Shown piece after piece: positions 3,699 to 19,829 of a stretch of 26,057 nucleotides of DNA. The stretch is taken from IMG/VR virus record IMGVR_UViG_3300003267_000006, positions 10,029 to 36,085 of that record; one strand, given 5' to 3'. Position 1 is the first letter of the stretch, and the number at the start of each line of letters is the position of its first letter. A program made the position numbers and the translations under genes. Below the pieces are notes generated by a model. That model ran no database searches and had not been told where the DNA came from. It saw only the letters and a program-made list of their open reading frames with translations. This DNA is from a virus.

Positions 3699-4058
3699 TT
3701 ACGGCCCCGACAACGTGCCGCCGTACGGAATCGCCATTGGGACCGACGTGCCGCCGTTCTCGTCCGGGTTGCCGTAGATCAGGATATAGCGCGTGCCGAA
3801 CCCTTCCCAGTGCGGGTCCGTCTGCCCCTGCAGGTCGACAAAACCCAGGAACTGCGGCAGGCCGTTATAGCGCGCCGGGTTGATGTCGGTACGGTCCAGG
3901 CACAGGCGTCCGTTGGCGACCGACACGCCGTTGTACAGGATGTCCGCAAACAGGCCGACGTCAGTCGTCGTCAGGTTGATCTGCGCAGCCTGGTCGTCCA
4001 GCACGCACAGGAACGTCTGATTGGCCCGGGGCTGGAGTGGGATGACCGTGTAACTCAT
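3699..4058 (-). CDS. Baseplate plug protein (Pam3 gp18-like)
   Basis: 119 residues, almost all beta strand. The order MSYTVIPLQPRANQTFLCVL, a variable strand run, NGRLCLD, an NGLPQFLGF strand, then GTRYILIYG near the end, is the pattern of the small phage baseplate plug family named from cyanophage Pam3 gp18. It caps the hub or joins it to the spike. The stop of the gp25-like gene overlaps its ATG (ATGA, 4055-4058), so the two are probably translated together. In related myoviruses these two genes also lie close together but normally after the tape measure gene. Family assignment is from pattern recognition. Confidence 0.65.
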   Translation of the reverse strand: MSYTVIPLQPRANQTFLCVLDDQAAQINLTTTDVGLFADILYNGVSVANGRLCLDRTDINPARYNGLPQFLGFVDLQGQTDPHWEGFGTRYILIYGNPDENGGTSVPMAIPYGGTLSGP

Positions 4059-4441
4059 GTCAGTTGCACCGTGCCGGTGTTACCGTTGAAGTCGGCAACC
4101 GTGATCGTGCCCGACAGGCGGCGTTCGCGACCGCCCGTGAAGGTGAAATCCGCCAGCGCGGTCTGGCACAACGGCACCTTGAGCCCTTCCGTGTTGTAGG
4201 CGTTCTGGAGTAGCGCCAGGTTGGGGTACTCGCCCATGATCGTCTCGTACCGGATGCCCTGCGTCGTGTCGTAGTAGACTTCGCCGCGCCACGCCAGGCA
4301 GCGGGTAGCCACGTCCTGTGCCAGCCGCATGCCGGGCCCGGTCAGGTCCGAGCGCGGCGTGGCGTCTCCGAACGTCGCCCAGTTGCCTTGCGCGTCAGTC
4401 GTGATGTCCCAGTTTGTGGTTTCGAGTGCCAGCGTGTCCAT
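4055..4441 (-). CDS. gp25-like baseplate wedge protein
   Basis: 128 residues. Features seen: WDITTDAQGNWATFGDATPR near the start, RLAQDVATRCLAWRGEVYYD in the middle and GIRYETIMGEYPN after it. This matches the phage baseplate gp25/W-like pattern (AQDvat, f-x-GEv-Yd-x-x-GipY, iLG). These proteins sit in the inner baseplate wedge and help start sheath assembly. It is the first gene of the minus operon. No Shine-Dalgarno sequence is present; a promoter-like -10 box ends only 6 bases before the ATG, so the message may be leaderless. The last four bases overlap the plug gene. Confidence 0.7.
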   Translation of the reverse strand: MDTLALETTNWDITTDAQGNWATFGDATPRSDLTGPGMRLAQDVATRCLAWRGEVYYDTTQGIRYETIMGEYPNLALLQNAYNTEGLKVPLCQTALADFTFTGGRERRLSGTITVADFNGNTGTVQLT

Positions 4442-4447
4442 GGGCGA

Positions 4448-4476
4448 ATCCTAGACGTTTCGGCGTTTTCTGGCAA
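4448..4476 (-). promoter_or_regulatory. Candidate promoter of the left tail operon
   Basis: Minus-strand TTGCCA (4476-4471), a 17-base spacer, then TAGGAT (4453-4448). The -10 box ends 6 bases before the ATG at 4441, placing the expected transcript start at or next to the start codon. With no Shine-Dalgarno sequence this predicts a leaderless message. Confidence 0.5.
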
Positions 4477-4535
4477 ATCCGGCGCGATGCTTGACTGACT
4501 GGAATCGTGCGCTGCTGGCGTCACTTTACAGACGA

Positions 4536-4675
4536 GTACAGCAGTACAGACGATTTGACCCTATTCCTCAAACTCCCCTCTACTTCGTTCTCACTACTAT
4601 CTCCCTTACTTATTTCATTTTTTCTCTTATACCTATATATAGAGAATAGGGGTTAAATCGTCTGTACTGCTGTAC
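4536..4675. repeat. 31/32-base inverted repeat around a G-free pyrimidine tract
   Basis: Left arm 4536-4566 begins GTACAGCAGTACAGACGATT and continues to TATTC. The right arm 4644-4675 is its reverse complement except for one substitution and one extra base. The 77-base core (4567-4643) is almost all C, T and A with only two G, and contains a T6 run and TATATATA. An extra copy of ACAGACGA lies at 4528-4535 beside the left arm. The element fills the gap between the divergent tail and terminase operons. The position fits a packaging site, replication origin or paired operator; the sequence alone does not decide which. Confidence 0.9.
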
Positions 4676-4773
4676 AAGCAAGAGCCGTGCCAGAAATCGA
4701 CAACAAGCCAGACAATCCCGCAGATAGGCGCCTGCTATCGCAAACGGTCTTGCAATTGCGTTACACTCCGTGT

Positions 4774-5262
4774 ATGGCCGAACCGCTCCAGCCCGTCAAG
4801 GCGTCCCTAGTTGCCGACCTGGTTTCGTTGATCAACGAGAACCTTGGCGAACTGCTGCGCGTGAAGACCGTAGCATGCCCAGATTGCAACGGGCGGGGTG
4901 TCACGGGCGGCGAGATCCAGTCCGACGGCGTGCTGCGCGACGATGGAACCCTGGCGACCTGCGCGACCTGCGGCGGCGTCGGCGCGGTCGAACGCTATCA
5001 CCTCGACGAAGAACTATTGCGCAAGCCGCGCTTTGGCCGACTGATCGAAGGGTTCGACCTGAAGCACGGCCAGCTGGTCCCGAAGTTCAGGTCGAAAGAC
5101 AAAGCATTTGCCATGCTGTCCAAGCTGCTTGGGTTTGACAAAGCCGTGCTGGAAATCGCCCAGGGCGCCAACTTCACGGACTCCGTGTCGCAGGAACAGA
5201 AAGACGCCTACCTCGAACAGCTCAAGGAACTAGCGCAGATGGGGCTGCTCGATGGCTGCTGA
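4774..5262 (+). CDS. Probable terminase small subunit with zinc motif
   Basis: 162 residues from ATG 4774; an in-frame GTG at 4687 would add 29 residues and starts just after the inverted repeat. Neither start has a clear Shine-Dalgarno sequence, and a TACACT box ends 6 bases before ATG 4774. The protein has a CPDCNGRG ... CATCGGVG pair, a four-cysteine zinc site of the DnaJ-like CxxCxGxG type, and a C-terminal FRSKDKAFAMLSKLLGFDKA segment that resembles the end of small terminase subunits. It overlaps the large terminase gene by 11 bases. The small subunit normally recognises the packaging site and regulates the large subunit. The role is inferred mainly from position and the C-terminal segment. 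Confidence 0.65.
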   Translation: MAEPLQPVKASLVADLVSLINENLGELLRVKTVACPDCNGRGVTGGEIQSDGVLRDDGTLATCATCGGVGAVERYHLDEELLRKPRFGRLIEGFDLKHGQLVPKFRSKDKAFAMLSKLLGFDKAVLEIAQGANFTDSVSQEQKDAYLEQLKELAQMGLLDGC

Positions 5263-6766
5263 CGCCGCGGCCGTCCTCGACGCGACGCCTATCGCCGTAG
5301 CGGCCGTAGCGCAGGTTCGGCCCCCCGATCCGGTCGACTATCTCGTCACGATGGCGCGGACGAACTTCGCCGCTTTCGTCTCCGCCGTCCACAAACCCCG
5401 GTTTCGCCATTCGACGTTTTCCGCGCGCGTCTGTCGCGCCGTCGACCAGTTCGTCGAAGATGTCATCGCAGGCAAGCGACCGGTTCTGATCCTGACCGCC
5501 CCGCCGCAGCACGGCAAGTCGTCGCTGATTGCCCGCTGCTTGCCGCCATACCTGTTCGGGCGCCTGACCGGCCAGTTGGACGCTGTACGCATTGCCAGCG
5601 CGTCGTACGCGCACGCGCTTGCGCAGCGCAACCGCCGGGACGCGCAGAGCATCATGACGGAGCCCATTTACCGGGCGATCTTCCCGCACACGTCGCTGAT
5701 CGGCTACAAGGGCGTCGACAACGCGTCGGACGGCCTGCAGATCCCGGGCGACGGCTGGCTGAAGGGCGTCGGCATCGGCGGCCCGCTAACCGGGTTCTCG
5801 GTCGACGTCGGTATCATCGACGATGCGGTCAAAAACGCCCAGGAGGCGTTGTCGGAAGTCACGCAGCAGCGCAACCGGGACTGGTACGACTCGGTGTTCC
5901 TGACCCGGTTGCAGCAGCGTAACGGGCAAATTATCATCGGCACGCCCTGGTCGGCGCAGGATATGCTCGCGCACGTGCGCAAGGCGTACGGCGGCGAAGC
6001 GAACTGCACGCTGCTGTCGTTCCCTGCGCTGAATCTACCAGACGAAGTCGGATTCGACCCCGACATGCCGCATGGTGCACTTGTGCCGTCGCTGCATGAC
6101 GAAGCCAAGCTGCGCGACATGAAACGCCACATGGGTGCCTTCTGGTGGGCGGCCATGTACCAGCAGACGCCGCTCGCGGATTTCGGGGCGATTTTCAAGC
6201 GCGCGGGGTTGCAGCACTACCGGCGCGCCGACCTGCCGCAGCAATTCCAAATCGTATGCATGACGGTGGATGCGACGTTCAAGGACGGGGACGCGTCCGA
6301 CTATGTAGCGGTCGGGGTGTGGGGCAAGACGCAGGACGACCGGGTCTATCTGATCGACTTCCGGCGCCAGCAACTGGCCTTCATGGCGACCGCGCAGGCG
6401 ATTGCCGACCTCAAGCGCAAGCACCCCCGCGTCAATCGGATTTACATCGAGGAAGCAGCGAACGGCGCGGCGCTGATCGACATGCTCAAGAAGCACTTCC
6501 CGGGCCTCGTCGGCGTGCCGCCGATGGGCTCCAAGGAAGCGCGAGCGCATGCAGTGTCGTGGGCGTGGGATGCGTTGCAGGTCTACCTGCCCGACCCGGC
6601 CGAGGCGCCAGGCATTGCGCAATGGGTTGCCGAGATCACGTCATTCCCTGACGTCAAGAATGATGACACGGTCGACTGCATGACGATCGCGCTGCACCAG
6701 CTGCTGTTGCGCACCCCTATCGCGGCACTCATCACGAACGACATCCTGCGAATGGCCGCAAGTTAG
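5252..6766 (+). CDS. terL: Terminase large subunit
   Basis: 504 residues, normal length. ATPase half: Walker A APPQHGKSS (residues 83-91), Walker B VGIIDD (186-191, with D190 and D191) and the coupling motif GTPWSAQD (230-237). Nuclease half: TVDATFKDG with D340, a strand LIDFRRQQL, IYIEE with E400, and NDDTVDCM with D471, D472 and D475, as in the RNase H-like terminase nuclease (Terminase_6C type). It cuts concatemeric DNA and drives it into the prohead through the portal. It overlaps the small subunit gene at its start and is followed by a short inverted repeat and then the portal gene. All key residues are present. Confidence 0.95.
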   Translation: MAADAAAVLDATPIAVAAVAQVRPPDPVDYLVTMARTNFAAFVSAVHKPRFRHSTFSARVCRAVDQFVEDVIAGKRPVLILTAPPQHGKSSLIARCLPPYLFGRLTGQLDAVRIASASYAHALAQRNRRDAQSIMTEPIYRAIFPHTSLIGYKGVDNASDGLQIPGDGWLKGVGIGGPLTGFSVDVGIIDDAVKNAQEALSEVTQQRNRDWYDSVFLTRLQQRNGQIIIGTPWSAQDMLAHVRKAYGGEANCTLLSFPALNLPDEVGFDPDMPHGALVPSLHDEAKLRDMKRHMGAFWWAAMYQQTPLADFGAIFKRAGLQHYRRADLPQQFQIVCMTVDATFKDGDASDYVAVGVWGKTQDDRVYLIDFRRQQLAFMATAQAIADLKRKHPRVNRIYIEEAANGAALIDMLKKHFPGLVGVPPMGSKEARAHAVSWAWDALQVYLPDPAEAPGIAQWVAEITSFPDVKNDDTVDCMTIALHQLLLRTPIAALITNDILRMAAS

Positions 6767-10025: not shown

Positions 10026-10051
10026 GAGTTTGTCAGGCTGTCACTCTTTGA
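10022..10051. promoter_or_regulatory. Imperfect dyad between divergent promoters
   Basis: TCAAGAGT and ACTCTTTGA form an inverted repeat with one bulged base across a 13-base centre that also holds two GTCA. The left half overlaps the -35 box of the minus promoter and the right half lies just before the plus promoter, a suitable place for a shared operator. Confidence 0.35.
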
Positions 10052-15868: not shown

Positions 15869-17362
15869 ATGTCGACAATCCCTATTTCCCAGGTAGTGCA
15901 GATCCTCCCCGGGGTCATCGCGGGCGGCGGCACGCCGTCCAAGCTCTCGGGCATGATTCTGACGCAGGACACGTCCGTCCCGCCCAGCCAGATCAAGTCT
16001 TTCTTCACGAAGGAAGACGTCCAGGAATGGTTCGGTCCGGCGTCGCCCGAAGCCGTCATGGCCAATATGTACTTCCCGGGCACCGTGAATGGCGGCCAGC
16101 TGCCGTACGAACTGAAGTTCGCCCGGAACGTTCTGGCTGCGGCGCCCGCCGGCGTCTACGGCATCGATTTGGGCGCGCTGACGCTGGCCCAGCTCAACAC
16201 GTTTTCGGGCACGCTGATCGTCACCACGACCGCGACCTTCACGTCGTCGGCGATCAACCTGGCGACCGCGACCAGCTTCGCTAACGCGGCCTCGCTCATG
16301 ACGGCCGGCTTCACGACGCCGAACTTCGCGATCACCTACGACGCGACCCGTCATCGTTTCCTGCTGCTGACGACTGCGACCGGCGTCGCCGCGACCAGCT
16401 CGGCCGTGACCGGCACGCTGGCTACGAATGTCGGCCTGTCCGCTGCTGCAGGTGCTTACCTGCAGGCGACCGGCGCCGACGTCGACACGCCTGCATCGGC
16501 CATGACGCGCGTCGTCGCGCAGGACATGAACTGGGGCACGTTCTCGACGTCCTACGCCGCAGACATCGACGACCGGCTGGCTTATGCGGCCTGGAATAGC
16601 GGCGAGTCGTACCAGTTCCTGTACGTGGCGTGGGATACCGAAGCGGCATCGATCGTGCCCGAGAACCCGGCGTCGTTCGGCGCACAGGTTGCTGCGCAAC
16701 CGTATCAGGGCGTCCTGCCGGTCTATGGCACGTTCGAATTGGCAGGTGCCTTCATGGGCTACGCTGCGGCGATCAACTTCAACATTCCGAACGGTCGTAC
16801 CAATCTAGCCTTCCGTCAGTTCGTCGCCGCGCCGAGTCCGACCGCGACGAGTCTTGCCACGGCCAACGCGCTGCTGTCGAACAATTACACGTATCTGGGC
16901 GCCTACGCCAACGCCGCGAACAACTACACGGTCGCGTACAACGGCAAGATCTCGGGCGCGTTCCTGTGGGTCGACACCTACCTGGATCAGATTTACCTGA
17001 ACCGGGAACTGCAGCGCGCGTTCTTCGAGGCATTCCTGGCATACAACTCGATCCCGTACAACCAGGACGGCTACACGCAGCTGTACCGCGCTGGCGTCGA
17101 CGTGGCCACGGCCGCCGTGACGTCAGGCATCATCCGGTCCGGCGTGACGCTCTCGCAGAGCCAGTCCCAGCAGATCAACACGCAGGCCGGCGGACGCGAC
17201 ATCGCCTCGACCGTGTCGACGCGTGGCTGGTATCTGCTGATCGGAGATCCCGCCAACGTCGCCCAGGTGCGCCAGCAACGCACGAGCCCGACCGCGTACT
17301 TCTGGTACACGGACGGCGGCTCGATTCAGATGCTGACCCTCAACAGCGTCGCCGTCATCTAA
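15869..17362 (+). CDS. Tail sheath protein (DUF3383 type)
   Basis: 497 residues, normal for the family. The start MSTIPISQVVQILPGVIAGG, the FFTKEDVQEWFGPASPEAVM segment (about 48-67), a Thr/Ala-rich insert domain (about 120-210), and a conserved C-terminal half with DTYLDQIYLNRELQRAFFEA and SIPYNQDGYTQLY identify DUF3383. This protein forms the contractile sheath in a group of myoviruses and is the best evidence for a contractile tail. GGAG lies 9 bases before the ATG. The tube gene follows after 13 bases. Confidence 0.85.
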   Translation: MSTIPISQVVQILPGVIAGGGTPSKLSGMILTQDTSVPPSQIKSFFTKEDVQEWFGPASPEAVMANMYFPGTVNGGQLPYELKFARNVLAAAPAGVYGIDLGALTLAQLNTFSGTLIVTTTATFTSSAINLATATSFANAASLMTAGFTTPNFAITYDATRHRFLLLTTATGVAATSSAVTGTLATNVGLSAAAGAYLQATGADVDTPASAMTRVVAQDMNWGTFSTSYAADIDDRLAYAAWNSGESYQFLYVAWDTEAASIVPENPASFGAQVAAQPYQGVLPVYGTFELAGAFMGYAAAINFNIPNGRTNLAFRQFVAAPSPTATSLATANALLSNNYTYLGAYANAANNYTVAYNGKISGAFLWVDTYLDQIYLNRELQRAFFEAFLAYNSIPYNQDGYTQLYRAGVDVATAAVTSGIIRSGVTLSQSQSQQINTQAGGRDIASTVSTRGWYLLIGDPANVAQVRQQRTSPTAYFWYTDGGSIQMLTLNSVAVI

Positions 17363-19559: not shown

Positions 19560-19829
19560 TCAGGCTGCGACCGTCTCGGCGCGCTGGGCCTTCAGGTTAC
19601 GGGTGACGGTCAGGCGCATACGGCATTCCTGCTCGTTCTCCCGGATGGCCTCGATCATCTTCAGGATGCGATTGACGCCGATCCGGTTTGTGTTGCGCGT
19701 GGTGTAGATCGACCGGCGCGACGTATTCAGCAGCGTAGCGGCCGCCTCGACGCCCAAGGCGTCGGTCAGGTCGCGCACCGTGAAGTCGGCCAGCGGAAGA
19801 GTCATGTAATCGACGGACTGCGGGGTCAT
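19560..19829 (-). CDS. Small HTH-like DNA-binding protein
   Basis: 89 residues. VRDLTDALGVEAAATLLNTS followed by RRSIYTTRNTNRIGVNRI reads as a Cro/repressor-type helix-turn-helix: a helix, LGVEAAA as the first HTH helix, a turn, and SRRSIYTTRN as recognition helix. GGAG lies 9 bases before the ATG. Its promoter (19860-19888) contains a 14-base palindrome, so it probably controls its own expression. It may also control the flanking early genes. Family assigned by pattern only. Confidence 0.65.
   Translation of the reverse strand: MTPQSVDYMTLPLADFTVRDLTDALGVEAAATLLNTSRRSIYTTRNTNRIGVNRILKMIEAIRENEQECRMRLTVTRNLKAQRAETVAA

Follow-up and report, generated by a model that had tools for sequence, protein, structure and literature searches.

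Architecture of the element

The element described here is a long inverted repeat around an AT-rich island, a probable replication origin, which lies in a 26,057-nucleotide stretch of the IMG/VR virus record IMGVR_UViG_3300003267_000006 (positions 10,029 to 36,085 of that record; the whole stretch is referred to as the window and is numbered from its first base). The record, 36,085 bases in all, belongs to a Bcep781-like lytic myovirus (Naesvirus/Kantovirinae-type), whose terminase large subunit region shares ~69% DNA identity with the Burkholderia phages Bcep1, Bcep43, Bcep781 and BcepNY3, and to which Xanthomonas phages such as KPhi1 and phiXaf18 are also related. The element is surrounded by the phage's own terminase, portal, capsid and tail genes rather than by a satellite island. 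Its parts and nearest genes are:

4055 to 4441, minus strand: baseplate wedge gene (Bcep1 gp53 homologue, PHROG 120), the left neighbour
4527 to 4535, plus strand: third TACAGACGA unit, outside the left arm
4536 to 4566, plus strand: left arm of the inverted repeat, 31 nt, GTACAGCAGTACAGACGATTTGACCCTATTC, with GTACAG at 4536 and 4544 and TACAGACGA at 4545-4553
4567 to 4643, no strand assigned: AT-rich island between the arms, 77 nt (A17 C24 G2 T34), a proposed DNA-unwinding element
4644 to 4675, minus strand: right arm, 32 nt, with TACAGACGA at 4658-4666 on the minus strand
4774 to 5262, plus strand: gene in the terminase-small-subunit position, the right neighbour (PHROG 16968, two CxxC motifs), hereafter the terminase-side gene
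5252 to 6766, plus strand: terminase large subunit gene (PHROG 38)

The right arm, reverse-complemented, reads GTACAGCAGTACAGACGATTTAACCCCTATTC and differs from the left arm by one substitution and one extra base. These arms, the 77-nt spacer with only two G and the additional TACAGACGA just outside had all been described in an initial annotation made from the sequence alone, and a base-for-base recheck and recount agreed with it on each point. The three copies of TACAGACGA at the element (two on the plus strand, one on the minus strand) are the only ones in the entire 36-kb record. The top ungapped inverted repeat of the window scored 23, compared with a mean of 12.2 and a maximum of 15 in 40 windows simulated by a first-order Markov model with the same dinucleotide make-up. 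The spacer has the lowest G content of all 77-mers in the 26-kb window, nor does any 77-mer elsewhere contain as few as two C, and the highest AT content of any 70-nt stretch is found at the island. A search of Rfam for structured RNA produced nothing above threshold, its two microRNA matches reaching 22 bits where the gathering thresholds are 85 and 140.

Conservation of the anatomy among relatives

Approximately 50 distinct loci were gathered, each encoding a relative of the terminase-side protein. At nearly all of these 50 loci the terminase-side gene is preceded by a gap that holds an AT-rich island, the distance from left arm to gene being typically 190-270 bp. Short repeats border the island, usually in facing orientation, and inverted repeats were detected around it in most loci (z ~3 to 27). 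When the arms were compared with those of related phages, as the initial annotation had proposed, anatomy and location proved to be conserved whereas the repeat sequence differed between phages. The same annotation had named the loss of the arms under an unchanged gene order as evidence against its proposal; what was found instead is an element that persists even where the gene order is inverted.

The repeat unit of the window, TACAGACGA, is similar to ACAGACGA of L040 and L022, whilst other loci carry ACTGACGA (L056, L057, L059), TACGGAGGA or TACGGAAGA (L008, L009, L016), ATGACAGA-like units (L004, L006, L007, L042, L043) or ATCCCACC (L005, L051, L054), and a loose TAC-NGA-NGA pattern is common to many of them. 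A scan of the collected loci for the doubled ACAGACGA arm pattern found none, and no viral contig matched the window's arm unit exactly, so that the rest of this phage's genome could not be traced in this way. At L016, L009, L049 and L052 extra TACGGAGGA-type repeat sets lie between the island and the terminase-side gene, in both outward and inward orientation.

The initial annotation had also drawn attention to the strand bias of the spacer. This bias is present in the window phage, but G counts vary widely among the relatives and some islands are biased in the opposite direction. A strand-biased (G-free) tract was rejected as the defining feature since it varies and reverses among relatives, whereas AT-richness is common. 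The bias is not conserved, and we give it no role in the mechanism proposed below.

A second copy beside the primase-helicase gene

In Bcep1 the same repeats occur twice, at 16,470 in the gap between the exonuclease and terminase genes and at 36,700 in the gap between gp53 and the primase-helicase gene. All 20 relatives with both flanks represented carry another copy in the gap that precedes the primase-helicase gene, five of these two-copy pairs joining contigs of one sample that were presumed to be a single genome. Within a phage the terminase-side and primase-helicase-side copies were 72-98% identical over 133-519 bp (at least 82% in 19 of the 20), whereas the first copies of different phages aligned over at least 80 nt in only 19 of 190 pairs. 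Since copies are alike within phages and mostly unalignable between them, the two evolve together within each genome. In the relative G001 only a single copy is present, beside the primase-helicase gene, and none lies beside the terminase.

IMG/VR contigs end unusually often at the element (L037, L041, L048, L062, L064, L067, L068, L075, L076), and of 13 contig ends in the 2 kb upstream of the terminase-side gene nine sit 63-349 bp before the match. That these are packaging ends was considered and rejected, as a 130-500 bp repeat present twice accounts for assembly breaks and so for the clustering of contig ends.

The candidate initiator

The primase-helicase of the relatives is annotated as a DNA primase or virulence-associated E protein and carries the Pfam VapE-like domain PF05272 (in relatives, as the window record excludes this region). 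Its profile matched the PriRep1 structure 7pds with an E value of 2e-38. In an AlphaFold model of the L125 protein (mean predicted local distance difference test score 77) the closest solved fold was again 7pds, PriRep1 with DNA (Foldseek E 4e-13; VIA Z 14.3). We take PriRep1 to be a protein of the Staphylococcus aureus pathogenicity islands (SaPIs); the entry itself names PriRep1 and 'similar to D. nodosus vapE'. In the model the N-terminus is prim-pol-like, the core is a VapE helicase, and residues ~726-808 form a C-terminal winged helix with helices at 755-763 and 773-782 and wing strands at 786-798. The relatives thus encode a VapE/D5-like self-loading helicase as the candidate cognate initiator, as do phage-inducible chromosomal islands (PICIs). 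In G003 (L140, L141; locus L077) the primase-helicase match is spread over two open frames, as in a frameshift or split gene.

Covariation of repeat type with the winged helix

Distances between repeats were compared by Mantel permutation tests with distances between proteins, namely segments of the primase-helicase and the terminase-side protein, using arms curated by eye unless stated otherwise. Of these, winged-helix distance showed the strongest correlation with repeat distance (r 0.475, 22 phages), and the correlation held given the rest of the protein plus the terminase-side protein (partial r 0.366, p 0.0002, 22 phages) and given the rest of the primase-helicase (r 0.344, p 0.001, 24 phages). 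Automatically extracted arms from 18 phages gave r 0.465 with a partial value of 0.426 (p 0.0002). Given the winged helix, the rest of the primase-helicase added nothing significant except for the adjacent helicase segment (partial r 0.24), nor did the terminase-side protein (r 0.007, 22 phages).

Two naturally occurring exchanges point the same way. In G002 the helicase half has been replaced, leaving only the N-terminal PHROG 16593 match, and both islands carry a different, GTGTGAAAG-like repeat, an apparent swap of the initiator domain together with its iterons (the repeats flanking the island). The primase concerned (L148, 762-3512) joins the N-terminal part of the phage family to another C-terminal half without a Pfam match. 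G001 has a strongly divergent winged helix, and its repeat is CAGTAAGG. The covariation lends indirect support, weak in a k-mer version of the test, to the idea that iteron specificity may reside in the initiator's C-terminal domain.

The same tests bear on whether the element could be a pac site recognised by the small terminase encoded alongside. Headful phages often have their pac sites in or near the small terminase gene, and the element does adjoin the terminase-side gene in the window and in most relatives. This adjacency, noted in the initial annotation, holds, but the functional link that it suggested is not supported: the terminase-side protein shows no link to repeat type once the winged helix is accounted for, L004 and the window have terminase-side proteins that are 81% identical and yet different repeats, the second copy sits away from the terminase, G001 has no copy there at all, and the contig ends at the element are explained by the assembly breaks described above. 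We regard a pac site as highly improbable. The other binding protein suggested at the outset, a helix-turn-helix-like protein at 19560-19829, gained nothing from the searches, having no Pfam match and matching only a PHROG of unknown function.

Control signals next to the element

Outside the arms, on either side, the window holds three short signals:

4448 to 4476, minus strand: promoter-like site TTGCCA-17-TAGGAT, which would serve the leftward operon and lies clear of the element (consensus match only)
4723 to 4739, plus strand: GATAG-N7-CTATC, a small inverted repeat that precedes the terminase-side gene by ~50 bp and is common across repeat types
4762 to 4767, plus strand: TACACT, a -10-like box just 5' of ATG 4774, read from the sequence

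The conserved start of the terminase-side gene is ATG 4774, corrected from an upstream GTG. GATAG-N7-CTATC was found at 15 of 50 loci compared with 0.4% of shuffles and is probably an operator separate from the element, whilst TTACACT or close variants occur at the equivalent position in most relatives. In the window (4723-4767) GATAG-N7-CTATC is followed by TTACACT ~7 bp before the start codon, an order kept across repeat types. Since the -10-like box is so near the ATG, the transcript of this gene may be leaderless or nearly so. Further downstream, in L011 and L012 (~1975-2760), the terminase large subunit gene is interrupted after residue ~80 by an intein-like or similar inserted coding stretch.

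These signals are relevant to the alternative that the iterons bind a phage transcription factor controlling the divergent operons at each island, with no role in replication. In Bcep1 the main operons start from two large divergent gaps, each of which holds a copy, and in the window a promoter-like site adjoins the element, as such an operator hub would have it. However, the promoter- and operator-like signals lie outside the arms and are constant across repeat types (GATAG-N7-CTATC, TTACACT), which the iterons are not, and of the two proteins compared it is the one for replication, through its winged helix, with which the repeat type goes. With the conserved control-like signals placed outside the arms, the main control site of the operons does not seem to be the iterons, and we consider it unlikely that transcriptional control is the element's function.

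Genome inversion between the two islands

The left neighbour of the terminase-side gene was recognisable at 44 loci, being the baseplate wedge gene at 25 and the exonuclease gene at 19. In 17 of 17 genomes in which the primase-helicase flank was also matched, some of them pairs that join contigs of one sample, the other of these two genes lay at that flank. The two arrangements are therefore reciprocal and differ by inversion of one genome half between the islands (e.g. L013, L040, L063, L065), and L063 and L065 have the same repeat type in opposite arrangements. Judged by gene order, the two copies are the breakpoints of a recurrent genome inversion, and the switch has occurred repeatedly. 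The placement of the element between two divergent late operons, as first annotated, is accurate for the gene arrangement of the window but does not hold for the inverted arrangement in relatives.

The islands might accordingly be sites of half-genome inversion whose arms serve a recombinase. The fit of all 17 testable genomes to the two arrangements, the repetition of the switch and the flipping of the island's own orientation between phages would all be expected of such a joint. Homologous recombination between near-identical repeats nevertheless suffices for the inversion, no recombinase was identified, and the AT-richness, the drift of the iterons and their link to the winged helix would be left unexplained, making a dedicated recombination joint extremely unlikely in our judgement.

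A proposed duplicated replication origin

We consider it probable, though not certain, that this lytic phage group has two replication origins, of the same build as those of PICIs, and that the element is one of them. The initial annotation had left a packaging start, a replication origin and a two-sided regulator side by side; an origin is clearly favoured and the other two are weaker, because of the iteron-island-iteron anatomy, conserved among the relatives, the second copy at their primase-helicase gene, and a repeat type that follows the winged helix of this protein, all of which can be read directly from the genomes compared. By analogy with known initiators we infer iteron binding, island melting and origin activity as follows. 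The primase-helicase would bind the iterons through its C-terminal winged helix, probably as two hexamers facing each other across the island; as a VapE-type self-loading helicase it would melt the AT-rich island and load itself there, and replication would start at the island in both directions.

Several points weigh against this proposal. Windowed GC skew showed no clear switch at the islands of Bcep1 and phiXaf18. PICI origins lie immediately 3' of rep, whereas the phage islands are found either on the 5' side of the primase-helicase gene or next to the terminase genes. A cruder, k-mer-based test of covariation was weak (r 0.19, p 0.048, partial p 0.095), its k-mer profile being dominated by low-complexity repeats; the arms in the curated test were chosen by eye, and Mantel permutation p-values only partly remove shared ancestry. 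The automatic inverted-repeat score was near background in some relatives, e.g. L036, L058, L062 and L072. Both copies occupy divergent gaps that also hold promoters, so that a regulatory side role of the element is possible. Finally, the window's own primase-helicase and second copy fall outside its 36-kb record, as, by inference from gene order, does its exonuclease gene. By comparison with the relatives, the window's phage would have the same primase-helicase and second copy: the missing ~10 kb is predicted to hold a second island with GTACAGCAGTACAGACGA between the exonuclease gene and the primase-helicase, whose winged helix is predicted to resemble that of L125 or L118. Two Kantovirinae genome papers mention neither an origin nor an inverted repeat, an earlier mention in the Bcep781 genome description being possible.

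If the proposal is correct, a duplicated PICI-type origin in widespread lytic phages links the replication of satellites and phages, more than 20 matched initiator/iteron pairs form a natural series for how a winged helix picks its site, and the replication start of Bcep781-like phages becomes directly testable. In a more speculative extension, which we hold to be doubtful, the twin PICI-type origins would be kept identical by recombination and would act both as start sites and as joints of an active inversion that re-pairs early and late operons, with winged helix and iterons drifting jointly into incompatible replication types.

Comparison with known origins

The initiator of phage lambda, O, is itself no helicase, and its iterons are direct repeats located within the O gene and flanked on one side by AT-rich DNA. 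Lambda-type origins, as generally known, share with the phage element a phage-coded initiator, iterons adjoining an AT-rich stretch and repeats that vary among relatives, but here the repeats lie on both sides of the island and are intergenic, which is not the lambda arrangement. SV40 T antigen and papilloma E1 act at origins where an AT-rich stretch lies between paired sites that take up two helicase hexamers. In both of these proteins the DNA-binding domain is N-terminal (PMC7581432). The phage element is alike in its proposed working, with facing sites around an AT-rich stretch, whereas the proposed binding domain of its candidate initiator is C-terminal, and we do not claim membership of this class. 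Closer to hand, the likely initiator of the Pbunavirus phage Banzai is reported to be homologous to the SaPI self-loading helicases, with two GC-skew minima, whilst the parts of that report considered here do not describe an iteron-flanked island or a duplicated origin (PMC12390725).

PICI origins always have two iteron sets around an AT-rich region (PMC6092414), and the SaPI Rep protein uses its C-terminal domain to recognise the iteron origin, apparently as two hexamers (PMC7581432). The phage element resembles the origins of SaPIs and Escherichia coli chromosomal islands (EcCIs), served by Rep or PriRep, in that its candidate initiator is a VapE-family self-loading helicase, primase-fused as in PriRep and with a C-terminal DNA-binding domain, and in that the iteron sequence varies between elements. 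It differs from them in lying in the genome of a lytic myovirus and not in a satellite, and in being present as two near-identical copies that are the breakpoints of a genome inversion.
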